Part shown: in pieces, positions 52,855 to 63,257 of the stretch
Numbering within the stretch: position 1 is the first letter of the stretch
Layout of the letters: every line of letters begins with the position of its first letter
Assembly: GCF_002272135.1 (NCBI RefSeq)
Contig: NZ_NPBF01000033.1
Coordinates: 124,001-188,000, forward strand
From: Virgibacillus sp. 7505
GTDB taxonomy: Bacteria > Bacillota > Bacilli > Bacillales > Amphibacillaceae
Length of the DNA stretch: 64,000 nucleotides
Direction of reading: 5' to 3'
Notes under the pieces: model-generated
Seen by the model: the letters and a program-made list of their open reading frames with translations, nothing else
The model's database searches: none
What the model was told of the DNA's origin: nothing
Position numbers and translations under genes: made by a program

Positions 52855-53691
52855 TTACATCAAAGATTTCGGTGGCATCGTATCATGATAGAGGAACGGT
52901 GCTGGTTTCAGCTTCGGAGCTCCGGCAAACGGCTGCGGCTCTGCCACATAATTAAACTGACCTCTGCCGTCCATACTAGGTCCGCTTGCCCAACGCCCTT
53001 TGGAGCTTGCATCCCCTCTGGAGAAGTTAAATAATGTATACGCGACTTCTTCCTTCTGCAAGCTTCTTGGGAAGGTAGTCGGTACAACGATGTCTCCTTC
53101 TCTTTCCTCTAGCTCCCTGATTGCAGCAACCCATTGGTTCTGATGCATCGTATCCCGAGCAATAAGGAATGAGAGCATATCGCGAACACCTGGATCGTCA
53201 GTCATGCCGTACAAACGTGTTACCTGAAGACGCCCTTGAGCTTCGGCGTTAAGGTTGGCACGGAAATCGGCAAGCAAATTCCCGCTTGCGATGATATATT
53301 TAGCATTCCAAGGGTAACCAGCGGCATCCGCTGGCAATGCTCCTAGTCCTGATACAATTGCATGCTGCGGATTAGTACCACCCATGACAGCAGCTAGGAC
53401 AGGATCTTGGTCATACGCACTTTTCTGGTCCTCAAAAGGTGCATCGTCAAGGAGCCTGGCAATCATAGTGGCAAGCATTTCAACATGCGCTATCTCTTCC
53501 GTGCCAGTATCAAAAAGCAAATCCCGATACTTGGCATCCGCCCTCGTATTCCAGCCCTGCATAAGATATTGCATCATTACACTAATCTCGCCGAATTGTC
53601 CGCCTAAGGCTTCCTGCAACTGTCTCGCAAAAACCGGATCAGGTTTAGATGGTTTGGCATGGTATTGGAGCTCTTTGATGTGATAAAACAT
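52855..53691 (-). CDS. Manganese catalase (YdbD/CotJC family)
   Basis: 278 residues. A ferritin-like four-helix protein with a di-Mn site: ligands in QFGEISVMMQYL (Glu), TGTEEIAHVEMLATMI (Glu, His), NLNAEAQGRLQVTRLY (Glu) and IARDTMHQNQWVAAI (His). It breaks down H2O2 without haem, so the window holds two unrelated catalases (see katA). The frame is open 25 codons upstream, but GAGGTGGG is placed for the ATG at 53691. The C-terminal tail (YVAEPQPFAGAPKLKPAPFLY) is Pro-rich, as in YdbD. A perfect palindrome lies 60 bases upstream. Confidence 0.93.
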   Translation of the reverse strand: MFYHIKELQYHAKPSKPDPVFARQLQEALGGQFGEISVMMQYLMQGWNTRADAKYRDLLFDTGTEEIAHVEMLATMIARLLDDAPFEDQKSAYDQDPVLAAVMGGTNPQHAIVSGLGALPADAAGYPWNAKYIIASGNLLADFRANLNAEAQGRLQVTRLYGMTDDPGVRDMLSFLIARDTMHQNQWVAAIRELEEREGDIVVPTTFPRSLQKEEVAYTLFNFSRGDASSKGRWASGPSMDGRGQFNYVAEPQPFAGAPKLKPAPFLYHDTMPPKSLM

Positions 53692-53750
53692 GTTGCACCC
53701 ACCTCTTTCGTTTTTATCCAACGCAGAATTATATGAGCGTCGGGACGAAA

Positions 53751-53764
53751 GTATGTATACATAC
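53751..53764. promoter_or_regulatory. Perfect palindrome upstream of the manganese catalase
   Basis: GTATGTATACATAC, 14 bases, 60 bases before the catalase start. Operator-like; regulator unknown. It does not fit the PerR consensus. Confidence 0.45.
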
Positions 53765-53795
53765 AATAATAACGCGGGGCCAGATTCTTCTAAAA

Positions 53796-55001
53796 TTAAT
53801 TTTCTGATAAGGATTCCTGCTGATTATTGCCCTTCCATAAGAATGTAATAGCCAGACCAATAATCAAAATCACTGCCGAGAAGAGATAAGGGTAATGAAT
53901 GTTTATATCAAATAGTATTCCACCTAACGCCGGACCAATGATATTGCCCAAACTAGTATATGTTGAATTCATTCCGGCAACAAAACCTTGCTCCTTGCCA
54001 GCTGTCCGGGATAAAAACGTTGTCAGAGCTGGCCGCAGCAAATCAAAGGCAAGAAAGATAAAGCAAGTTACAGCGAGTACTAATAAGAAACTGGAAATTA
54101 CCGTAGACACAACAGCTAAAACACCACCGATTATCAAGCATAGCTGTATCAGCTTCTTTTCACCCATGACATCTACCATCTTCCCAAACAGCAGGACCTG
54201 CACGATCACGCCGAAGATAGAACTCACCGTAATAATTAATGCGATGTCTTTTGGATCGAAGCCGAACTTATGGTCTGAAAACAAACTGAATACAGTTTCA
54301 TAAGCTGACAAACCAAATGCGAGCACAAATACAATGAAAAACGCAATAAAGTAAATCGGATTCAATGATCTTCTCAAGTCACCCAGGAAACTAGTTCCCT
54401 TTTTACTGTCCGCAATCTCAGCAAGCTGCTCCTTCGTCAGAGGCTCTTTCAGTATGAAAATAGATAAAAAGCATGCTAGGAATGCTATAACCGCAGCAAC
54501 GTAAAAAGGCGTTCGAATGCCATATTCGGCAATATACCCGCCAAGTCCAGGCCCAATTATGAATCCTGTACTAATTGCAGCCGATATGTATCCCATCGCT
54601 TTCGGCCGTTCTTTATTTGTCGTGATGTCAGCAACATAAGCTGTGACTCCAGGCATAATAAAGGAAGCACTGATGCCGCCTAATATCCTTGATAGATAGA
54701 GTAAAGAGACATGGGTCGCCAAGCCAAAAATCAACTCAGAAACAGCGAAAAGAAACAAACCTGCTGTAATGAGTTTCTTTCTGCCGTATCGGTCCACCCA
54801 TCGGCCTGCAAATGGTGACATAATCAATTGCGCCCCTGCGAATGCAGCAACAAGATACCCCATCGTCTTGCCTGATAAGTGCATAATCTCCATGAATGAC
54901 GGCATCACTGGAATGATAAGTCCCATCCCTAAAAAAGCGATGAATAAATTGCTTAATAATATAATTAATACGGATTTTTGTTCTTTTATTGGCTTCTTCA
55001 A
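53796..55001 (-). CDS. MFS multidrug exporter, NorA/Bmr type
   Basis: 401 residues, twelve hydrophobic segments, DHA1 family. FLGMGLIIPVMPSF in TM1, FAGRWVDRYGRKKLITAG (motif A), LSRILGGISASFIMPGV (motif B) and GFIIGPGLGGYIAEYG (motif C, antiporter signature). It expels cationic drugs in exchange for protons. ORF evidence starts at a TTG (55025), but AAGGAG lies 9 bases before a second TTG at 55001, which begins MKKPIKEQ. The upstream region carries a promoter with an inverted repeat, so it is probably regulated. Confidence 0.9.
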   Translation of the reverse strand: MKKPIKEQKSVLIILLSNLFIAFLGMGLIIPVMPSFMEIMHLSGKTMGYLVAAFAGAQLIMSPFAGRWVDRYGRKKLITAGLFLFAVSELIFGLATHVSLLYLSRILGGISASFIMPGVTAYVADITTNKERPKAMGYISAAISTGFIIGPGLGGYIAEYGIRTPFYVAAVIAFLACFLSIFILKEPLTKEQLAEIADSKKGTSFLGDLRRSLNPIYFIAFFIVFVLAFGLSAYETVFSLFSDHKFGFDPKDIALIITVSSIFGVIVQVLLFGKMVDVMGEKKLIQLCLIIGGVLAVVSTVISSFLLVLAVTCFIFLAFDLLRPALTTFLSRTAGKEQGFVAGMNSTYTSLGNIIGPALGGILFDINIHYPYLFSAVILIIGLAITFLWKGNNQQESLSEN

Positions 55002-55042
55002 ATAATCATTCTCCTTCTGCTGCAATACTGTACAAGAACCAA

Positions 55043-55166: not shown

Positions 55167-56360
55167 TTAAATAACTTCGTTTTGCTTCAGTGCTTTTATT
55201 TCTTCATGGGAATAACCTAAGCTCTGTAATATCTCTTCATTATTCTCGCCCAAATCAGGTGCAACCGATCGAATGCTGCCTGGTGTCTTTTCGAATTTAG
55301 GAACAATCCCAGGTACTTTGATTTTCCCCAATCTCGGATGCTTCACTTCGACAATATTTTCGCGGGCTTGATAATGTTCATTTTCAAAGATATCAGCGAT
55401 GCTCAGAACCGGGCTGATTGGCACCCCGTGTGTATCGAGCTTTTTCAATAACGCTTCCCGAGGGTGCTTACCAATCCATTCTGCGACAATTTGATTCATA
55501 CTTTCATTGTTTTCCAGCCGGCATGCATTGGTATGATAACGCGTGTCGGACAGCAAATCTGTACGATCCATGGCTGCTGCCAGTCGATTGAAGGTCGTAT
55601 CAGTGCTCGTAACAAGCACGACCCAATGGTCATCCTTCGTTTTAAAGGTTCCTGAGGGAGAGGAATGTCCAGCTAACCCAGGCGAACGCTCCCGTATTTT
55701 CCCGAGCTGATCAAATTCAGCTACAAGAAATTCCATCATCCTAAAGACTGATTCATAAAGCGCAACGTCTATCATCTGTCCCGTGCCCGCTTCATTTGTA
55801 TCTCGGTGATAGATAGCAGTCACAGCCGCAAAGGCTACATAAATACCGCAAATATAATCCGTCAGCGAAAATGGCGGACTTACCGGGTGACGATCGGTGA
55901 ATCCCTGTAAATAGGTATAACCGCTGAACGCTGTCGCAGGAGTGCCGAAGCCGGCTTTTTCACGATAAGGTCCTGTTTGGCCATAACCTGAAACTCGAAT
56001 CATGATTAAATTCGGATTGATCTCTTTCAGTACATCGTAACCTAAGCCCCATTTTTCCAGCGTTCCGGGACGAAAATTTTCCACTAAGATATCATGTGTC
56101 GCTGCAAGCTTTTTCATGATTTCCACGCCCGCTGCTTTATGCAGATCAAGCGTCAGCGATTTTTTATTACGTGACAGACCTGGCCAGCGCAGCGGCTCAT
56201 CTCCTTTGAATGGTCCAACACTTCTTGATGTATCCCCTCGTCCTGGTATCTCGACCTTGGTAACTTCGGCGCCAAAATCACCAAGCAATGCCGTTCCGAA
56301 CGGCGCCGCGATCATTGTCGATACATCCAGTACTTTCACACCTGCCAAAGGTGTTGGCAT
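55167..56360 (-). CDS. Class III (CaiB/BaiF) CoA-transferase
   Basis: 397 residues. It moves CoA between carboxylic acids. Seen: LAGVKVLDVSTMIAAPFGTALLGDFGAEVTKVE (split), RNKKSLTLDLHKAAG, ENFRPGTLEKWGLGYD, and the catalytic Asp in FSLTDYICGIYVAFAAVTA near 167; GLAGHSSPSGTFKTKDDHW stands where formyl-CoA transferases have their glycine loop, which is absent, so oxalate is not indicated. As last gene of an operon with a citrate-synthase-type lyase it could activate a hydroxy acid (malate-, citramalate- or citrate-like) for cleavage. GGAGGG before the ATG. Confidence 0.9.
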   Translation of the reverse strand: MPTPLAGVKVLDVSTMIAAPFGTALLGDFGAEVTKVEIPGRGDTSRSVGPFKGDEPLRWPGLSRNKKSLTLDLHKAAGVEIMKKLAATHDILVENFRPGTLEKWGLGYDVLKEINPNLIMIRVSGYGQTGPYREKAGFGTPATAFSGYTYLQGFTDRHPVSPPFSLTDYICGIYVAFAAVTAIYHRDTNEAGTGQMIDVALYESVFRMMEFLVAEFDQLGKIRERSPGLAGHSSPSGTFKTKDDHWVVLVTSTDTTFNRLAAAMDRTDLLSDTRYHTNACRLENNESMNQIVAEWIGKHPREALLKKLDTHGVPISPVLSIADIFENEHYQARENIVEVKHPRLGKIKVPGIVPKFEKTPGSIRSVAPDLGENNEEILQSLGYSHEEIKALKQNEVI

Positions 56361-56376
56361 GTTACTCCCTCCTTTC

Positions 56377-58140
56377 TCAAGGAATGCTTACATGTGATTT
56401 AGCTTGATCAGGTGAATAAATATCATTGATATTCCATTTCCCGTCTGTCGGAACAGGCTCATTCTTCATGGCCGCATCGATGACGACAGGTTCATTCGCT
56501 TCGATTGCTTCTTTTAGTGCACCTTTGAATTGGTTCGCATTTTCAATTTTGATTCCTTTTACGCCGTATCCCCTCGCTATTGCAGCGAAGTCTGGTGAGT
56601 AGCTGTTACCATCAACCTGGAATCGTGTTCCGTAAGTTGTATCATAATGGGCCATCTCCAAGCCGGCGATTGTGCCAAAAGCACTGTTGTTCATCACAAC
56701 CCAGACAACCGGTATATTCTCTTCTTTTGCTGTTGCTAACACGGAAGGATTTTGTCCGAATCCACCATCGCCTATTAATGAAACGACTACCTTTTCAGGA
56801 GCAGCTATCTTGGCGCCAAGAGCAGCTGAACTGCCGAACCCCATCGTTGCAAAGCCGCCAGGTGTCAAAATGGAACCTGGTGTGTATATAGGAAACTGCT
56901 GTCCTACACCGTTTTTATTCCAGCCAACGTCTGTTGTAAGATAGGCATCCCGCGGCAGGACATCACGAACCTCAGCCAATATACGCTCTGGCTTCATCGG
57001 GAAGGATGTACTGTGCACATTTTTGGAAATGCGCTCGCGTAATGATTTGCGATAGGCTATGATTTCTTCTTTTAGTCGCTGATTACGGTCTATGCCGTCT
57101 GGATATATACGACGTGCTACCCTATTCAGTGCAATGAACGCCTTTTTCAGATCAGCAACCGCCCCAATCTCAACCGGATAGTTACGACCGATCTCATTCG
57201 AATCAATATCGATGTGAATCAATTTGGTTTTTGGAAAATGGAAGGTTACGTCATCATACCAGCTGCTTGAATCTGCTTCTGAAAAACGAGTGCCTGCCCC
57301 GAAAATATAATCGGCATTTTTTGTTTGCTCGTTAATGAAGCTTGTTCCCCAGAAGCCAGTCATGCCAAGCGTCAGTTCATGATCGTCAGGCAGAACCCCT
57401 TTTCCCATCAGCGAATGGGCTACCGGTATGTTCATATGCTCCACAAATTCCCGCAGCTCCTCCGCTGCATCGGCCAGCACCACACCGCCACCGGCATACA
57501 GTACCGGGCGCTTCGCATCAGCTAATTTCCCTACAATACGTGCTGCTGTTTCTTCATCTATGGATGGTTTTTCCACTACCCGGGTATGGTGCTGTAGCAG
57601 CTTGAAGCTGTCTTCGTCTATTTTCTTCGAGAATATATCCATCGGCACGGATATAAGAACAGGGCCGGGGCGTCCGCTTTCCGCCAACTGGAATGCCTTT
57701 TGAAGGATTTCCGGAAACAGCTCCGCCTGATCAACACGCCATGCTCGCTTTACAAACGGACGATAGATTTCATATTGTGCGCCGTCAGCATGCATATTCA
57801 CTTCCTGATGCGGATGTTTTCCATAGTAATAACTTGGCACATCGCCTGCGATTACGACCATCGGAGTAGAATCCAATGCTGCGTTGGCAACTCCTGTTGC
57901 TGCATTCGTTAAACCTGGCCCTAAGTGACTCAGCACTACTGCAGCCTTCTTTGTCACTCGTGCATATCCGTCTGCTGCGTGTGACGCAATTTGCTCATGG
58001 CGTACATTAACGAACTTAATAGTGCTTTTTTCTAATTCCGCCAACACGGCGATGTTGGTGTGACCGCATAGTCCGAAAATATATTTCACACCACGAGATT
58101 CCAGGTATTTGACTAACTGCTCCGAAACTAACTTTTTCAT
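56377..58140 (-). CDS. ThDP-dependent enzyme, acetolactate synthase-like superfamily
   Basis: 587 residues. N-terminal PYR domain with the catalytic Glu in VNVRHEQIASHAADGYAR (about 50), a middle domain with KRPVLYAGGGVVLADA, and the C-terminal PP domain with the ThDP-Mg motif GDGGFGQNPSVLATAKEE and NNSAFG. It belongs with acetolactate synthase, benzoylformate decarboxylase, 2-hydroxyacyl-CoA lyase and IolD, but signatures of none of these named enzymes fit. In this operon it could decarboxylate a 2-oxo acid or split an acyloin to an aldehyde for the ALDH that precedes it. AGGAGG before the ATG. Confidence 0.88.
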   Translation of the reverse strand: MKKLVSEQLVKYLESRGVKYIFGLCGHTNIAVLAELEKSTIKFVNVRHEQIASHAADGYARVTKKAAVVLSHLGPGLTNAATGVANAALDSTPMVVIAGDVPSYYYGKHPHQEVNMHADGAQYEIYRPFVKRAWRVDQAELFPEILQKAFQLAESGRPGPVLISVPMDIFSKKIDEDSFKLLQHHTRVVEKPSIDEETAARIVGKLADAKRPVLYAGGGVVLADAAEELREFVEHMNIPVAHSLMGKGVLPDDHELTLGMTGFWGTSFINEQTKNADYIFGAGTRFSEADSSSWYDDVTFHFPKTKLIHIDIDSNEIGRNYPVEIGAVADLKKAFIALNRVARRIYPDGIDRNQRLKEEIIAYRKSLRERISKNVHSTSFPMKPERILAEVRDVLPRDAYLTTDVGWNKNGVGQQFPIYTPGSILTPGGFATMGFGSSAALGAKIAAPEKVVVSLIGDGGFGQNPSVLATAKEENIPVVWVVMNNSAFGTIAGLEMAHYDTTYGTRFQVDGNSYSPDFAAIARGYGVKGIKIENANQFKGALKEAIEANEPVVIDAAMKNEPVPTDGKWNINDIYSPDQAKSHVSIP

Positions 58141-58172
58141 GATAGGGTATCCTCCTAGCTCTTCGTGTCCGC

Positions 58173-59600
58173 TTACAGCAAATCCTGAAGCACGACCATC
58201 TTCATTTCTGTCATCTCTTCTGCAGCGAATCGAGGACCTTCCCTGCCGATGCCGCTGTTTTTAATACCGCCATATGGCCAATGATCCAAACGGAAATTTG
58301 ATGATCCATTGACGATGACAGCGCCAACCTCCAGTTCTTTAACTGCTTTACGGATCACTTCCAGTGAATTAGAAAAAATGCCACTTTGCAGACCAAAATC
58401 CGAATCATTCACTTCTTTGATTGCGTCGTCCAAATTATGATAGGGCAGCACACTGACTACTGGTCCGAACACTTCCTGACAGACAACTTTACTTTGCTTT
58501 TTCGGACGAAGCAGAATTGCCGGCACTATGGCAGCGCCATTCACCTTGCCGCCATGAATTAGCTCCGCCCCTTCTGCAACAGCGTCGTCGATCCATTCAC
58601 TGATCCGCTCTGCTGTCTGTCTATTCACCACACACCCAACATCTGTGTGCTCATCTTCCGGATTCCCAACAATAAGCTCTGCTGTCCGCTGCTTTAGCTC
58701 TGCAACAAATGCGTTCAAGATTTGTTCATGCACATAAATACGCTGGACGGAAATACAGCTTTGCCCGGAATTACTGAAAGCTGTTTTCGCACAAATGGCA
58801 GCGGCCCGCTCAACATTGGCATCTTTATCGACAATGGTTCCCGCATTCCCCCCAAGCTCTAGCAGTACCTTTTTCATGCCAGCCGTTTTGCTGATTTGCC
58901 TGCCACCTGGAACTCCTCCTGTGAACGATACGAGATTGACTCGATCATCCTGGACGAGCTGCTCGCCTATCTCTTTTCCACCTAGAATCATGTGGATTGC
59001 CTGCGCCGGCATGCCAGCCTCCAGCAGCAGTTCCACAAGTGCAGTCGCAATTAAAGGCGCTTGCGGAGCTGGTTTTAGAACAGTGACATTACCAGCTGCA
59101 AAACTTGGTCCGATTTTATGACAAATCAAATTGAGCGGCGCGTTAAACGGTGTTATAGCTGCCACTACTCCTACTGGGACACGAAACGTCAAAGCCATGG
59201 AGGACGATCCTCTCTCTGAAGCTCCTCCTGGAATTGTCTCGCCAAAAAGTCGTTTGGCTTCTTCCGCTGACAGCTGCAATGTTTCTATGGAACGAGCAAC
59301 TTCATCCCGCGTATTTTTTAGAGCCTTCCCTACTTCTTTTGAAATCAAATGCGCAAATTCTTCTTTACGCTCCTGCAGCAAAGCAGCAGCCTGGTACAGC
59401 ACCTTCGCCCGGAACGCCTGTGAAAGAGCAGCGATTTGCTTTTTATTGCTGTACGCTGCTGTCAGTGCATGATCAACCTCAGCATGACTCGCTGTCAATT
59501 GAACACCAACTTGTTCATTTTTATAAGGACCCAGCACCGGGATCGGTTCACGATCGTCATCTATCCATACACCATTTACAAAAGGTCTGGCCTTTCGCAT
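58173..59600 (-). CDS. Aldehyde dehydrogenase (NAD(P)-dependent)
   Basis: 475 residues, complete ALDH fold. VGVVAAITPFNAPLNLICHKIGP with the catalytic Asn, SFTGGVPGGR (cofactor), LELGGNAGTIV with the general-base Glu, SNSGQSCISVQR with the nucleophile Cys, and EVFGPVVSVLPY. It oxidises an aldehyde to an acid; the family is that of lactaldehyde/glyceraldehyde/succinate-semialdehyde enzymes, but substrate cannot be read. AAGGAG lies within the end of the upstream lyase gene, so the two are translationally linked. Confidence 0.9.
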   Translation of the reverse strand: MRKARPFVNGVWIDDDREPIPVLGPYKNEQVGVQLTASHAEVDHALTAAYSNKKQIAALSQAFRAKVLYQAAALLQERKEEFAHLISKEVGKALKNTRDEVARSIETLQLSAEEAKRLFGETIPGGASERGSSSMALTFRVPVGVVAAITPFNAPLNLICHKIGPSFAAGNVTVLKPAPQAPLIATALVELLLEAGMPAQAIHMILGGKEIGEQLVQDDRVNLVSFTGGVPGGRQISKTAGMKKVLLELGGNAGTIVDKDANVERAAAICAKTAFSNSGQSCISVQRIYVHEQILNAFVAELKQRTAELIVGNPEDEHTDVGCVVNRQTAERISEWIDDAVAEGAELIHGGKVNGAAIVPAILLRPKKQSKVVCQEVFGPVVSVLPYHNLDDAIKEVNDSDFGLQSGIFSNSLEVIRKAVKELEVGAVIVNGSSNFRLDHWPYGGIKNSGIGREGPRFAAEEMTEMKMVVLQDLL

Positions 59601-59606
59601 TCGCTA

Positions 59607-60434
59607 TCACTCCTTTCGCATGTCTTTTGGTATATCCCCTGTATATTTCACAAGTTTTTCTTCATTAGGACACGGCCCTTTGATCAATGTGCCTTGCATT
59701 AATTCTTCATAGGCATGCGCAACGATTCCCATCCCCCGAGAGAGGGAGAAGATCCCTTTGGCTGCTTCTGCCGGGATACCAAGTTCACACTGGATAGCTG
59801 CACTAATACCATCCACATTAATCGTAAACGTACGTTTCTTTGCAGCCGACATCGTCTTTCTGTAATCTTCCAGAATCGCAAGATAGTCTCCGGTGATTTC
59901 TCCACTGTCAATTACTTTCCGCGCCAACTCATACAATCTATCGACACGCGGATCCTGATCATGCAGCTGATGACCGAAACCAGGAAGCTTCTCGCCTTCA
60001 GAAAGGAACCGCTGCAAGGTATCTGCCACAACATTTTTATTAGAAGCCAGTTCTGTCTTCGTTATATATAACAATTCCATTGCACCTTCTACAGCACCGC
60101 CATGTATGTCTCCCAGCATATTGATTCCTGTAGCAACAGCCGAATTAAAACTGACACCACAAGTGGCTGCCATTCTTGCTGCCGCTATCGAAGGCGCGCG
60201 CGGACCGTGATCTGCACCGGCTACAAGCACACTTTCGAATAATTTAGCTTGCTGGTCGGTTAGTTCCTTGCCGACCAGCAGAAAAAACAGCATTTGGCTG
60301 TAAGATACATTCCCAATGAGATCCTCAATTCGTTTACCGCGAAGAACAATTTGATTTTTCTTTATGTCGCTAATTTCTGTTTCCCACCAAGCTCCGCCGT
60401 TTTTGTAATGCTCCAATGCACTTCGTCCACTCAT
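59607..60434 (-). CDS. Short citrate-synthase-superfamily protein, citryl-CoA-lyase-like
   Basis: 275 residues, much shorter than citrate synthase (about 370-430). The catalytic triad is kept: His in NMLGDIHGGAVEGAMEL, His in LPGFGHQLHDQDPRVDRL, Asp in INVDGISAAIQCELG. The missing N-terminal large-domain part is also missing in citryl-CoA lyases, which cut citryl-CoA to acetyl-CoA and oxaloacetate. A cleavage role on citryl-, citramalyl- or a similar 3-hydroxy-acyl-CoA made by the CoA-transferase is the simplest reading. A GTG at 60467 is open; GAGGTGAGGG is placed for the ATG at 60434. An operator-like site lies just before it. Confidence 0.85.
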   Translation of the reverse strand: MSGRSALEHYKNGGAWWETEISDIKKNQIVLRGKRIEDLIGNVSYSQMLFFLLVGKELTDQQAKLFESVLVAGADHGPRAPSIAAARMAATCGVSFNSAVATGINMLGDIHGGAVEGAMELLYITKTELASNKNVVADTLQRFLSEGEKLPGFGHQLHDQDPRVDRLYELARKVIDSGEITGDYLAILEDYRKTMSAAKKRTFTINVDGISAAIQCELGIPAEAAKGIFSLSRGMGIVAHAYEELMQGTLIKGPCPNEEKLVKYTGDIPKDMRKE

Positions 60435-60457
60435 TCCCTCACCTCGCAAAATCTCGA

Positions 60458-60471
60458 TCTTGTACACTAGT
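60458..60471 (-). promoter_or_regulatory. GntR-type operator-like site before the lyase gene
   Basis: Plus-strand TCTTGTACACTAGT differs at two positions from ACTTGTATACTAGT, the inverted form of the site found twice near the regulator gene. It covers the junction between the isomerase stop and the lyase start, so it may mark an internal, co-regulated promoter. Confidence 0.5.
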
Positions 60472-61297
60472 ATATGTTTACGTCATCCAGATTCAGACTG
60501 ATATATTCCTTCGCCGATTGTAAGCATCTTCTCGCATATTCCTCGAACCCCAATTCCTTTGTTCGCTGCAAGTGAGGAATTTCCAATGAATATGGGATTT
60601 TCGGAATCTCCTGTAGAATTTCTTTGATAGGAATACCGCCTTCTCCAATATAAAGGCGTTCCTCTCTCATTATCTGGATCATTTGTTCTCTTGATGTTGG
60701 AATTTCTTTGCTTGCATCACATAAATGAAACATACGAAACCACTCAACAGGTATTTCCTTGATATCGTTAACATTTTCCTTTGAACGATGAAAATGATGA
60801 CTATCAATCATCAGCCCTGCATTATCCTGTGCAGCAGCTGTCAGCATACTGACAGCTTGAGCTAAAGTAGCAACAGATGCTACTGGGACAAACTCCAGTT
60901 CTATCGTCAATTGATAGGGTTTTGCTAATTCACACAATTGAATAAAACGCTCAGTAGCAAATACCAAATCGTCCGTCCAAACGCTGCAAAGCACATGCCG
61001 GGCTCCAAGCTCTGCTCCGACTTCAAAAGCTGGTTCATACTGTTTCGGATCCATACCATCCACTATTTTGGCTAGCTCTATATCCAACACTTGGATACCA
61101 GTTTCACGAAGTGCTGTTTTTGTTTGTCTCAGCATCTTTCGGTTGCTAGCCAAGTTGTAATCCGGTTCATTTTTCAGTCCCATACAAATTGGTCTGATGC
61201 TTACAAAATCAAAGCCTGCCCTGGCTGCAATATAAGTTAGTGTTGGGGGTGGACATGCCAATGCTGTCAGATGCGCTAAAGAAAATTGATCCTTCAA
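60467..61297 (-). CDS. Sugar phosphate isomerase/epimerase-like TIM-barrel protein
   Basis: 276 residues, AP-endonuclease 2/xylose-isomerase-like fold. Metal ligands: Glu in IELEFVPVASV, Asp and His in LMIDSHHFHRSKENV, His in FRMFHLCDAS and Glu in IPYSLEIPHL. Related to IolI/IolE-type and hydroxypyruvate-isomerase-type enzymes; likely a keto-sugar or keto-cyclitol isomerase, epimerase or dehydratase. The start is uncertain: a TTG at 61297 has AAAGG 9 bases before it and gives MKDQFSLAHLTAL; a GTG at 61351 is open but lacks a ribosome site. It follows the dehydrogenase gene in the operon. Confidence 0.82.
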   Translation of the reverse strand: MKDQFSLAHLTALACPPPTLTYIAARAGFDFVSIRPICMGLKNEPDYNLASNRKMLRQTKTALRETGIQVLDIELAKIVDGMDPKQYEPAFEVGAELGARHVLCSVWTDDLVFATERFIQLCELAKPYQLTIELEFVPVASVATLAQAVSMLTAAAQDNAGLMIDSHHFHRSKENVNDIKEIPVEWFRMFHLCDASKEIPTSREQMIQIMREERLYIGEGGIPIKEILQEIPKIPYSLEIPHLQRTKELGFEEYARRCLQSAKEYISLNLDDVNIY

Positions 61298-61408
61298 AGT
61301 GATCAACCTTTCTGTATTCTTTCTTCTGAGCAAAATCCGCCATTTTCCCACCTGCTTTTACTTCCCACTGATTTAGAACTATTTGTTCTCTGGTTTACCA
61401 TTGCTATC

Positions 61409-62437
61409 TCAGAGGGTCACTCGCCTTTTTTCTTCAATAGACAGATTGATTGCCTCCAGTATTTCTAATGTTTTTAAGCCTGCTTCTCCAGGGACGCGCG
61501 GCTCTTTGCCTTCTTTCAGCACATCCATAAAGTGCTGCAGTTCCGCAGCTATCGGATCTACAGTAGAAGCGGGTGGAAATTTTTGTTCCACCAAAGCATG
61601 CTTCCAGCCATACTCTTCCTCACTGTACTGATAACAGCGAAAGCTCGGAAAAGTTAAGCTCCCTTTCTTTCCGAAAAAGTAATAGCAATCTTCCTCATAG
61701 TAGTGGTAAATTGGGTTCTCTTTAACATTGAATTCATAAGACCATGGAGACGGAACCCCATCTGTCAAAAAGTATTGAATGACTGTCCCATCGTCCGCTT
61801 CTAAGATGGCTGTTACGGCATCCTCTATCTCAAACCCGCGAATCTTGTTACGGCTTATAGCGTAAGCGCTTTCAATATTTAAGTCAGTCACATAAAGCAA
61901 GTTATCCAAGTCATGAATACCATTAATCAATAGTGGTCCGCCACCTGCTTTCACGCGCCAGGCTTCCTTGTAATAATCCTTATCTTTGGCGAGGACCCAC
62001 ATCATATTTACGCCGACTAAGTCGCCGATGACACCACTTTCCAGCAATTGCTTCAAATGATTGATTTTCGCAGAAAACCGTCGATGATGGCCAACCAAAA
62101 GCTTTACTTGCTTGTCTCGAGCATAAGCAATCATTTCACGAGCGGCATCCGTTGTGTCGGCAATCGGTTTTTCTACTAAACAATGCAATCCTTTTTCCGC
62201 ACAGTACGTAACCGCTTCTTTGTGTAAGTGATTCGGCAGTGTAATGATCACTCCGTCTAGGAGACAATTATCAATAAGCTCCTTATAATCTTCGAATAAA
62301 GGTACAGCCAGCTCTTTTGCCCGCTCCCTTGCACTCGCATTATTACCGGCTACCGCTACCAATGTGATCCCCGCCATTTTTTTCGCTTGCTGTGCAAATG
62401 TGTAACCATGATTCAAACCAAGCACTGCAACTCTCAT
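61409..62437 (-). CDS. Gfo/Idh/MocA-family oxidoreductase
   Basis: 342 residues. MRVAVLGLNHGYTFAQQAKKMAG at the N terminus is a Rossmann start with the less common NHGYT in place of GxGxxG's last part; VEKPIADTTDAAREM holds the EKP Lys; GPLLINGIHDLDNLLYV holds the Asp/His pair. It oxidises a sugar, sugar acid or cyclitol with NAD(P). It is the first catabolic gene after the regulator, with an operator-like palindrome 23 bases upstream. It is only distantly like IolG at 28794. Confidence 0.87.
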   Translation of the reverse strand: MRVAVLGLNHGYTFAQQAKKMAGITLVAVAGNNASARERAKELAVPLFEDYKELIDNCLLDGVIITLPNHLHKEAVTYCAEKGLHCLVEKPIADTTDAAREMIAYARDKQVKLLVGHHRRFSAKINHLKQLLESGVIGDLVGVNMMWVLAKDKDYYKEAWRVKAGGGPLLINGIHDLDNLLYVTDLNIESAYAISRNKIRGFEIEDAVTAILEADDGTVIQYFLTDGVPSPWSYEFNVKENPIYHYYEEDCYYFFGKKGSLTFPSFRCYQYSEEEYGWKHALVEQKFPPASTVDPIAAELQHFMDVLKEGKEPRVPGEAGLKTLEILEAINLSIEEKRRVTL

Positions 62438-62459
62438 CCAACTATTCTCCTTTTAGCAT

Positions 62460-62473
62460 ACTAGTATACAAGT
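62460..62473. promoter_or_regulatory. GntR-type operator-like site before the Gfo/Idh gene
   Basis: ACTAGTATACAAGT is palindromic about GTATAC except for one base pair position (ACTxGTATACxAGT). 17 bases around it (ATACTAGTATACAAGTT) are identical to the site at 63242. It lies in the 53-base gap between regulator stop and operon start. Confidence 0.7.
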
Positions 62474-62490
62474 TATGATTTATACGGAAC

Positions 62491-63198
62491 TCATCTACTG
62501 GACTGCACTTCAAAATAATCAGCATACTTCTTCATAATGTTTCCGTAGTGATTGGAGGCTGTGTCCAGATGCTGATTCAGCCTTTCTACAACTCCCTCGG
62601 CATCATTTTTTTGTATCAGCGCAATCAATTCTTCATGGTCAAGCATGACCCGGCCCATTTCCCGTGACTCGAAAAAATCCAAGTAGCTTATCCGGTTGAC
62701 ATGTCCCCGTACCTGACGAACGACACTGGCTAAAGTCTGATTACCGCATATCTCAAGAATTTTGTCGTGGAACTTCTCATCATACTCGTAAAAGGCAATA
62801 ACCTCTTGCTTTTGTGCAGCTGCTCTCTGCTGATTCATAATATGCTTTAAATCATCCTTGAACTTTCTCACCTGTAAATCAGATTCATCCCAAATGACAG
62901 CGGCTTCCCGAAACGCAACTGCTTCCAGACTTTTTCTAACCTGAAACGCTTCCTGCACCTTTTTCTTTGAAATATATTTCACCCTGATACCTTTCTGAGG
63001 GATGATCTGCAGGAACTCCTCTGAAGCAAGTATTTGAATCGCTTCCCTTACAGGCGTTCTGCTTAATCCTAGTTCTTCCGCAATCGTGCTCTCATAAATC
63101 ATCTGCCCCGGCTTGTAATCTAGCGTTATTATCTTTTTGTATAAGTGTTTATACACTTCATAAGCCAATGTCTTCCGCTGGACAGTAAACTTATTCAT
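62491..63198 (-). CDS. GntR-family regulator, FCD (FadR) subgroup
   Basis: 235 residues. Winged helix at about 5-75 (AYEVYKHLYKKIITLDYKPG, ESTIAEELGLSRTPVREAIQ, IIPQKGIRVKYIS) and an FCD effector domain with the metal-binding pattern Asp in YEYDEKFHDKILE, His, then GHVNRI and LDHEELIALI. Such proteins sense carboxylates or sugar acids through a bound metal. It is adjacent to and co-directional with the catabolic genes; the same palindrome occurs before it and before the first catabolic gene. The ATG at 63198 is chosen; the frame is open to 63255, across the operator. Confidence 0.9.
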   Translation of the reverse strand: MNKFTVQRKTLAYEVYKHLYKKIITLDYKPGQMIYESTIAEELGLSRTPVREAIQILASEEFLQIIPQKGIRVKYISKKKVQEAFQVRKSLEAVAFREAAVIWDESDLQVRKFKDDLKHIMNQQRAAAQKQEVIAFYEYDEKFHDKILEICGNQTLASVVRQVRGHVNRISYLDFFESREMGRVMLDHEELIALIQKNDAEGVVERLNQHLDTASNHYGNIMKKYADYFEVQSSR

Positions 63199-63243
63199 TC
63201 TCATCATCTCTTTATCATCTGGAATGTTTGAATCGAAAATGAT

Positions 63244-63257
63244 ACTAGTATACAAGT
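63244..63257. promoter_or_regulatory. GntR-type operator-like site before its own gene
   Basis: ACTAGTATACAAGT, identical to the site at 62460, 46 bases upstream of the regulator start. Autoregulation is inferred. Confidence 0.7.

Follow-up and report, generated by a model that had tools for sequence, protein, structure and literature searches.

In the myo-inositol (iol) pathway, IolG performs a Gfo/Idh-type oxidation, the TIM-barrel protein IolE dehydrates the product to a cyclic 1,2-dione, and the thiamine diphosphate (ThDP) enzyme IolD hydrolyzes the ring; the pathway ends with a kinase and an aldolase. Cyclohexane-1,2-dione hydrolase (CDH) is also a ring hydrolase, and its product aldehyde is oxidized to a dicarboxylate. 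The plant acids quinate and shikimate are abundant, and the textbook bacterial route makes protocatechuate from them, with a ring opening that requires oxygen. The homocitrate synthases of the 3-hydroxy-3-methylglutaryl-CoA (HMG-CoA) lyase superfamily join acetyl-CoA and 2-oxoglutarate. Here, a stretch of 64,000 nucleotides (the window) from Virgibacillus sp. 7505 (GCF_002272135.1, contig NZ_NPBF01000033.1, positions 124,001 to 188,000) was analyzed. It contains an operon of seven genes, encoding a GntR/FCD regulator, a Gfo/Idh/MocA oxidoreductase (GFO), a xylose-isomerase-like TIM barrel (TIM), a citryl-CoA-lyase-like protein (CCL), an aldehyde dehydrogenase (ALDH), a ThDP enzyme, and a class III CoA-transferase (CoAT). 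Most likely, the operon breaks down quinate or shikimate by direct ring opening, with no aromatic intermediate and no oxygen.

The enzyme families, their co-occurrence, the interchangeability at two steps, the motifs and the fold were observed directly; the substrate, every intermediate, and the regiochemistry of the following route are those that we infer. A dehydrogenase (GFO here; elsewhere AroE, a Zn-alcohol dehydrogenase or a pyrroloquinoline quinone (PQQ) enzyme) would oxidize the C3 hydroxyl of quinate to give 3-dehydroquinate. The TIM protein, as a metal-dependent enzyme, would eliminate the proton at C4 and the hydroxyl at C5, producing the 1,2-dione 1-hydroxy-3,4-dioxocyclohexane-1-carboxylate; IolE and dehydroshikimate dehydratase carry out the same elimination on their own substrates. 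The ThDP enzyme would hydrolyze the C3-C4 bond, so that C3 would become an aldehyde on the short arm and C4 a carboxylate on the long arm. The ALDH would turn this aldehyde into homocitrate, and the CoAT would convert homocitrate to homocitryl-CoA; elsewhere, an acylating ALDH would do both. The CCL, or elsewhere an HMG-CoA-lyase homologue (HMGL), would then cut homocitryl-CoA into acetyl-CoA and 2-oxoglutarate. Shikimate might enter by way of AroE, followed by a reverse hydration by AroD or AroQ.

Like citrate, quinate has a carbon (C1) that carries both a carboxylate and a tertiary hydroxyl and lies between two CH2 groups. The homocitrate formed would be HOOC-CH2-C(OH)(COOH)-CH2-CH2-COOH, with CoA carried on the two-carbon arm. 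This regiochemistry was proposed because only so is the thioester beta to the tertiary alcohol and accessible to a lyase of the citryl-CoA or HMG-CoA type; the thioester was placed at the former aldehyde carbon because of the acylating ALDH variant. With that variant, the carbon, oxygen and hydrogen balance (own arithmetic) is quinate + CoA + 2 NAD+ -> acetyl-CoA + 2-oxoglutarate + 2 NADH, without oxygen. Entry through 3-dehydroquinate is likely, and the full route from quinate through 3-dehydroquinate, the 1,2-dione and homocitryl-CoA to acetyl-CoA and 2-oxoglutarate is moderately likely.

Compared with the iol pathway, a Gfo/Idh oxidation, a TIM dehydration and a ThDP ring hydrolysis are likewise proposed, and the one IolD examined has a histidine at the place of H27 of the window ThDP enzyme. 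However, this enzyme scored 249.5 bits against the IolD model TIGR04377 (cut-off 715), whereas a true IolD (genome G011) scored 956 bits; the GFO scored 124 bits against the IolG model TIGR04380 (cut-off 355), and the operon ends in ALDH, CoAT and lyase genes. A plain sugar or inositol pathway was rejected on these two cut-offs. CDH, too, is a ThDP ring hydrolase, and its H28 aligns with H27, but it shares only about 25% identity with the window ThDP enzyme, and its H31 and N484 are not common to the family of the latter. The genome of strain 22Lin, from which CDH comes, holds a separate homologue (71%) of the window ThDP gene. Thus, the route resembles the ring opening of inositol and of cyclohexanedione, yet by the tests made it is a member of neither.

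The classical quinate/shikimate pathway (QuiA/QsuD, AroD/QuiB, QuiC) would start from the substrates proposed here and share the first intermediate(s), whereas the operon route is proposed to proceed without an aromatic intermediate or an oxygen-dependent ring cleavage. The CCL is similar to the citryl-CoA lyases: it passed the cut-off of NF004864 (351 vs 261 bits), its closest solved relative is 6hxp (154 bits), and H77, H156, R164, D209 and R234 were found in 27 of 27 rows, with the invariant His, Asp and Arg presumably corresponding to catalytic residues of the citrate synthases. It differs in its proposed substrate, in its gene setting, and in being replaced by an HMGL in other loci; the gene setting was taken to argue for homocitryl-CoA as the candidate substrate. 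An HMGL of the latter kind (locus L111) scored 324 bits against HMG-CoA lyase (cut-off 246) and 108 bits, below the cut-off, against NifV, and belongs to the homocitrate synthase/HMG-CoA lyase superfamily; HMGLs of this type are proposed to work in the direction of cleavage, on homocitryl-CoA, and none is present in the window operon.

Two of the enzymes are probably of another kind than had been supposed. In the first-pass annotation, which was made from the sequence alone, the TIM protein was named an isomerase. Its model has Lmo2234, IolI and the solved QuiC1 dehydratase fusion as nearest folds, and because the last two are among them it is probably a dehydratase. E137, D167 and E241 were conserved in 46 of 46 rows and H193 in 43 of 46, and the profile aligned with IolI; these E-D-H-E residues are assumed to be metal ligands from the identity of the ligands in IolI. 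The TIM protein has no VOC domain, and it scored 18.2 bits against the model of QuiC, a TIM-VOC fusion (NF042435, cut-off 1200). The ThDP enzyme, thought earlier to split or decarboxylate a 2-oxo acid, would be a ring hydrolase rather than a decarboxylase, probably, because its histidine is common to the dione hydrolases CDH and IolD. H27 was found in 32 of 32 rows; in six further ThDP enzymes encoded by the 22Lin genome, the residues at this position are G, G, A, S, D and D. Ile30 and Ile491 are also present in 32 of 32 rows, where IolD has Leu and Ile. Comparison of the model fold did not distinguish between CDH and the remaining ThDP enzymes. Among solved structures, the ThDP enzyme matched the acetolactate synthase 1ybh with 261 bits and the 2-hydroxyacyl-CoA lyase 8vzd with 196 bits. 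Acetolactate synthesis was rejected (434.6 bits, under the TIGR00118 cut-off of 538). The CoAT scored 229.6 bits against the formyl-CoA transferase model TIGR03253 (cut-off 504) and reached the cut-off of none of the seven listed families.

Relatives of the cluster were gathered by scanning one genome per species with the ThDP protein. The best 80 of 533 confirmed relatives were used (among them L038, from the congener G007), together with the window (L031), genome G078 (L020), and plasmid records of Azoarcus (L032), Streptomyces (L033) and Nonomuraea (L034), giving 85 loci. By record title, 40 belong to Pseudomonadota, 30 to Bacillota, three to Actinomycetota and two to Synergistota, with four further phyla represented once each and six loci ungrouped; the related clusters thus span eight phyla. 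The hidden Markov models (HMMs) for the families were built from members of the same 85 loci, with thresholds chosen by us. As 31 of the loci are shorter than 18 kb, genes that might lie beyond a contig end count as lacking. Of the 85 loci, 51 had an enzyme for each of the four slots of the module; among the 54 loci of at least 18 kb, 38 did.

Genes for hydroaromatic acids were frequent in these loci. Shikimate dehydrogenase (AroE) was found in 46 of 85 loci by HMM, and in 42 by a single-query tblastn with AroE of the window genome. Type I dehydroquinate dehydratase (AroD) was found in 19 and type II (AroQ) in 12, so that 55 loci contain one or more of the three. AroB and AroC of the window genome, used as control queries in tblastn, each hit 0 of 85 loci. 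By these counts, AroE, AroD and AroQ travel with the ThDP gene, whereas AroB and AroC do not; the enzymes that accompany the ThDP gene are those interconverting quinate, shikimate, dehydroquinate and dehydroshikimate. For this reason the substrate class is very likely the hydroaromatic acids. The polyol or sugar acid suggested in the first-pass annotation was right as to the general nature of the substrate, but probably wrong as to the compound. One example each of AroE, AroQ and HMG-CoA lyase passed at least one NCBIfam cut-off, while the scanned examples of the acylating ALDH, the QuiC-like protein and the PQQ-dehydrogenase-like protein were below the curated cut-offs. The Azoarcus KH32C record, whose ThDP enzyme is 72% identical to that of the window, is annotated with a shikimate dehydrogenase and a type I 3-dehydroquinate dehydratase. 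Besides GFO, the related loci contain AroE, Zn-alcohol dehydrogenase and PQQ-dehydrogenase-like genes. The PQQ-dehydrogenase-like genes adjoin the cluster in the Streptomyces (L033), Nonomuraea (L034) and Rhizobacter (L050) loci (two were scanned, both below the NCBIfam cut-offs), and their products are possibly periplasmic quinate dehydrogenases.

The order of steps proposed earlier, from oxidation and rearrangement through the ThDP reaction, aldehyde oxidation and CoA loading to cleavage into acetyl-CoA and an oxo acid, was backed by the distribution of two kinds of ALDH. An acylating ALDH alone was found in 52 loci, an ordinary ALDH alone in 16, both in five, and neither in 12. CoAT occurred in 15 of the 16 ordinary-ALDH loci and in three of the 52 acylating-ALDH loci (Fisher p 2.8e-11, with loci taken as independent and shared ancestry ignored, as in all Fisher tests here). 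The best NCBIfam match of an example of the acylating type was the acylating sulfoacetaldehyde dehydrogenase (425 of 600 bits). This pattern is expected if the aldehyde needs to be turned into a CoA ester, by the acylating ALDH in one step or by ALDH plus CoAT in two. The lyase slot is also interchangeable: CCL was found in 37 loci and HMGL in 32, with both in one and neither in 17 (Fisher p 7e-10). On the ThDP tree, with rows holding both or neither enzyme excluded, at least eight label changes were counted for the kind of lyase and at least four for the kind of ALDH; tree-aware pair tests (three and nine independent pairs) were not significant, with a median p of 0.25 each. For 11 of the 17 lyase-free loci the genomes were searched; all 11 contained an HMGL that exceeded the family cut-off at another place, compared with three of 14 control genomes. 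HMGL has other roles, and these copies suggest a substitute lyase only weakly.

Several observations weigh against direct ring opening of quinate or shikimate. The Terribacillus operon itself (the genus to which the window was assigned, see below) is without any Aro gene. HMGL homologues usually act on HMG-CoA. Neither kind of ALDH is present in the twelve loci mentioned above, several of which are on short contigs, and TIM is missing from 23 loci; in 12 genomes or records searched for it, it was found elsewhere in six and not found in six, the latter including three named-genus isolates (Anoxybacillus, Rhizobacter, Salipiger) and one case with a plasmid record only. A QuiC-like gene is present in 29 of 85 loci (example 443 bits vs the cut-off of 1200), as TIM-VOC proteins that are fused or split in two genes (L085:4736-6616, L032:7964-9664, and 27 other loci), and 24 of these 29 also hold TIM, a coexistence that the proposed route does not account for.

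The absence of Aro genes from the Terribacillus operon could mean that its GFO feeds some other carboxylic acid of the hydroaromatic or cyclitol type into the same ring opening and CoA reactions, and that quinate and shikimate are used only by the relatives with AroE, AroD or AroQ. GFO enzymes have broad substrates, and the half of the operon with the regulator and GFO varies more among close relatives than the half from TIM to CoAT, which also speaks for another ring acid. However, the Aro genes are dispensable for quinate because one dehydrogenase suffices for entry, and the 72% identity to the ThDP enzyme of Azoarcus KH32C links the operon to a cluster annotated with AroE and AroD; this explanation is unlikely. 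Another one shares the 3-dehydroquinate but not the ring hydrolysis: in a retro-benzoin reaction, the ThDP enzyme would split the acyloin C3-C4 bond of 3-dehydroquinate into two aldehydes, TIM would act on the product as an isomerase or epimerase, and the lyase would release acetyl-CoA and a hydroxylated five-carbon oxo acid. The second aldehyde would need an extra enzyme, whereas both kinds of ALDH are present in only five of 85 loci. Together with the histidine shared with CDH and IolD and the QuiC1 fusion among the three nearest folds of TIM, this makes a retro-benzoin cleavage distinctly unlikely.

The relation of TIM to QuiC, although distant, and the QuiC-like genes in 29 loci would fit an ordinary aromatic pathway, in which TIM would form protocatechuate as a dehydroshikimate dehydratase and the remaining genes would have unrelated functions. 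This would leave the conserved ThDP, CoA and lyase genes without a role, and the QuiC score of TIM (18 bits) is below the cut-off of 1200. No match to PF00775 was found in the window genome, where protocatechuate 4,5- and 2,3-dioxygenases were not searched for, and the cluster occurs in Lutispora and Acidaminococcus, which we take to be genera of strict anaerobes. The aromatic pathway is therefore very improbable. The ThDP enzyme and CoAT are related to 2-hydroxyacyl-CoA lyases and formyl-CoA transferases, respectively, so CoAT might activate a 2-hydroxy acid, the ThDP enzyme cleave it to formyl-CoA and an aldehyde, and ALDH oxidize the aldehyde. Such a pathway was rejected because CoAT is absent from 49 of the 52 loci with the acylating ALDH alone; moreover, it gives no role to TIM, the lyase and the Aro enzymes, and the ThDP enzyme matches these lyases less than the acetolactate synthases. 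It is hardly credible. Direct ring opening by way of the 1,2-dione remains the preferred reading.

No paper that connects these enzymes with the breakdown of quinate or shikimate, or that describes a homocitryl-CoA step in it, was found in the open-access literature that was searched, although a prior description is possible. Nor were any genes found there that are assigned to quinate or shikimate fermentation, or any orthologous cluster assigned to a pathway, in agreement with the earlier remark that no named pathway with this gene set is known. According to PMC10512730, which cites Brune et al. 2002 on Ilyobacter insuetus, quinic and shikimic acids are the only substrates fermented by one Fusobacteriaceae lineage; the same work is in the reference list of PMC3035301. 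If true, the route may explain how bacteria ferment quinate and shikimate without oxygen. It is just on the likely side that this is an undescribed, oxygen-independent quinate/shikimate pathway, present in at least eight phyla, which proceeds through a 1,2-dione and homocitryl-CoA, employs two unrelated lyase folds, and underlies anaerobic fermentation. The cluster provides a complete, redox-balanced and assayable hypothesis for anaerobic quinate/shikimate breakdown. It would also give a role to genes of Azoarcus KH32C that were named by resemblance as 'citryl-CoA lyase', 'CoA transferase', 'thiamine pyrophosphate-binding protein' and 'sugar phosphate isomerase/epimerase'. Parts of the module were seen in L045 (bin UASB270, a name suggesting reactor sludge) and in the gut anaerobe Acidaminococcus intestini (L117), which suggests operation in methanogenic and gut settings; in the latter, the ThDP, TIM, AroE and transporter genes of the TRAP (tripartite ATP-independent periplasmic) type lie on one contig, and an HMGL gene is elsewhere in the genome.

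The window sits in a 3.66-Mb draft genome (G000). The genus name Terribacillus rests on its grouping with the congener G007, Terribacillus saccharophilus DSM 21619, whose locus L038 carries the same DNA. The six co-directional, tightly spaced genes behind a GntR/FCD regulator that had been described earlier agree with the coordinates (Table 1): all seven frames are intact, and the Pfam matches support the family of all seven. From the regulator to CoAT, the intergenic gaps are 53, 57, 32, 6, 32 and 16 bases; the second widens to 102 if TIM starts at its TTG, and the third becomes a one-base overlap if CCL starts at its GTG. Promoter-like matches (19 vs 21.1 expected from shuffled sequence) and terminator-like matches (6 vs 10.2) were not in excess.

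Table 1. Coordinates of the operon in the window, with family matches and proposed roles.
Feature	Position	Strand	Remarks
GntR/FCD regulator	62491-63207	-	Pfam GntR and FCD; longer TTG frame to 63255 possible
GFO, Gfo/Idh/MocA oxidoreductase	61409-62437	-	Pfam; proposed quinate dehydrogenase (to 3-dehydroquinate), substrate inferred
GFO-TIM gap	61352-61408		Site of TRAP genes dctP-dctQ-dctM in 6/9 genus genomes
TIM, xylose-isomerase-like TIM barrel	60467-61351 (GTG) or 61306 (TTG)	-	Pfam AP_endonuc_2; proposed 3-dehydroquinate dehydratase (to 1,2-dione)
CCL, citryl-CoA-lyase-like, short citrate-synthase-type	59607-60434 (ATG; GTG frame to 60467)	-	NF004864; proposed homocitryl-CoA lyase
ALDH, aldehyde dehydrogenase	58173-59600	-	Pfam Aldedh; proposed oxidation of ring-opened aldehyde to homocitrate
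ThDP enzyme	56377-58140	-	Three TPP domains (Pfam); proposed hydrolase opening cyclic 1,2-dione
CoAT, class III CoA-transferase	55167-56360	-	Pfam CoA_transf_3; proposed homocitrate CoA-transferase

The complete operon was found in all nine Terribacillus genomes compared (that of the window and eight others). The ratio of nonsynonymous to synonymous substitution rates (dN/dS) over the seven genes was 0.04-0.08 between the window genome and G001, indicating purifying selection, and 0.02-0.13 against five of the eight congeners (GFO against G008 was not estimable). Because of this conservation, the selection, and the related clusters in eight phyla, the operon is not just an accidental succession of genes. 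The regulator has the same position in all nine genomes and is presumably the operon's own; its best NCBIfam match, phnR_burk, was under the cut-off. Outside the genus, no CCL match above 82.8 bits was found among 52 relatives of the family or order, compared with 507-610 bits within the genus. Of 398 genomes drawn from the phylum, the window genome included, only this genome and G078 passed the NF004864 cut-off.

The earlier statement that the operon contains no transporter is correct for the window but not for the genus. The dctP-dctQ-dctM genes lie between GFO and TIM in six of nine genomes and are lacking there in G000, G001 and G007, in which the sole DctP relative found is distant (27-28% identity) and encoded elsewhere. 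A tenth genome (G459), listed as the species of the window, also has the TRAP genes; its DNA is 92% identical to the window in the TIM-to-CoAT half and 80% in the regulator-GFO half. In contrast, the window and G001 share a single 8.2-kb block at 87% identity that spans both halves. The TRAP genes are present or absent among close relatives (L137, L023, L024, L030), and the regulator-GFO half is more diverged in the TRAP-bearing ones. Because of this unequal divergence, the 5' half of the operon looks as if it had been swapped as an allele, with or without the transporter.

Clusters with CCL were also seen on three plasmids, each with no annotated Aro neighbor: in Ruegeria (L035) with a tripartite tricarboxylate transporter and a CoA transferase, in Roseibium (L036) with an ATP-binding cassette transporter, an ALDH and an alcohol dehydrogenase, and in Agrobacterium (L037) with an ALDH and a CoA-transferase. 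These possibly belong to other pathways. Downstream of the operon, on the same strand, are a major facilitator superfamily (MFS) transporter gene (53796-55025) and a manganese-catalase-like gene (52855-53766), both named by eye. The MFS gene is probably outside the operon, because it is absent beside it in three congeners (G002, G003, G004). About 5 kb past the end of the window (L031:16129-19289), phage-like genes for amidase-like and tail-like proteins were recognized by eye.

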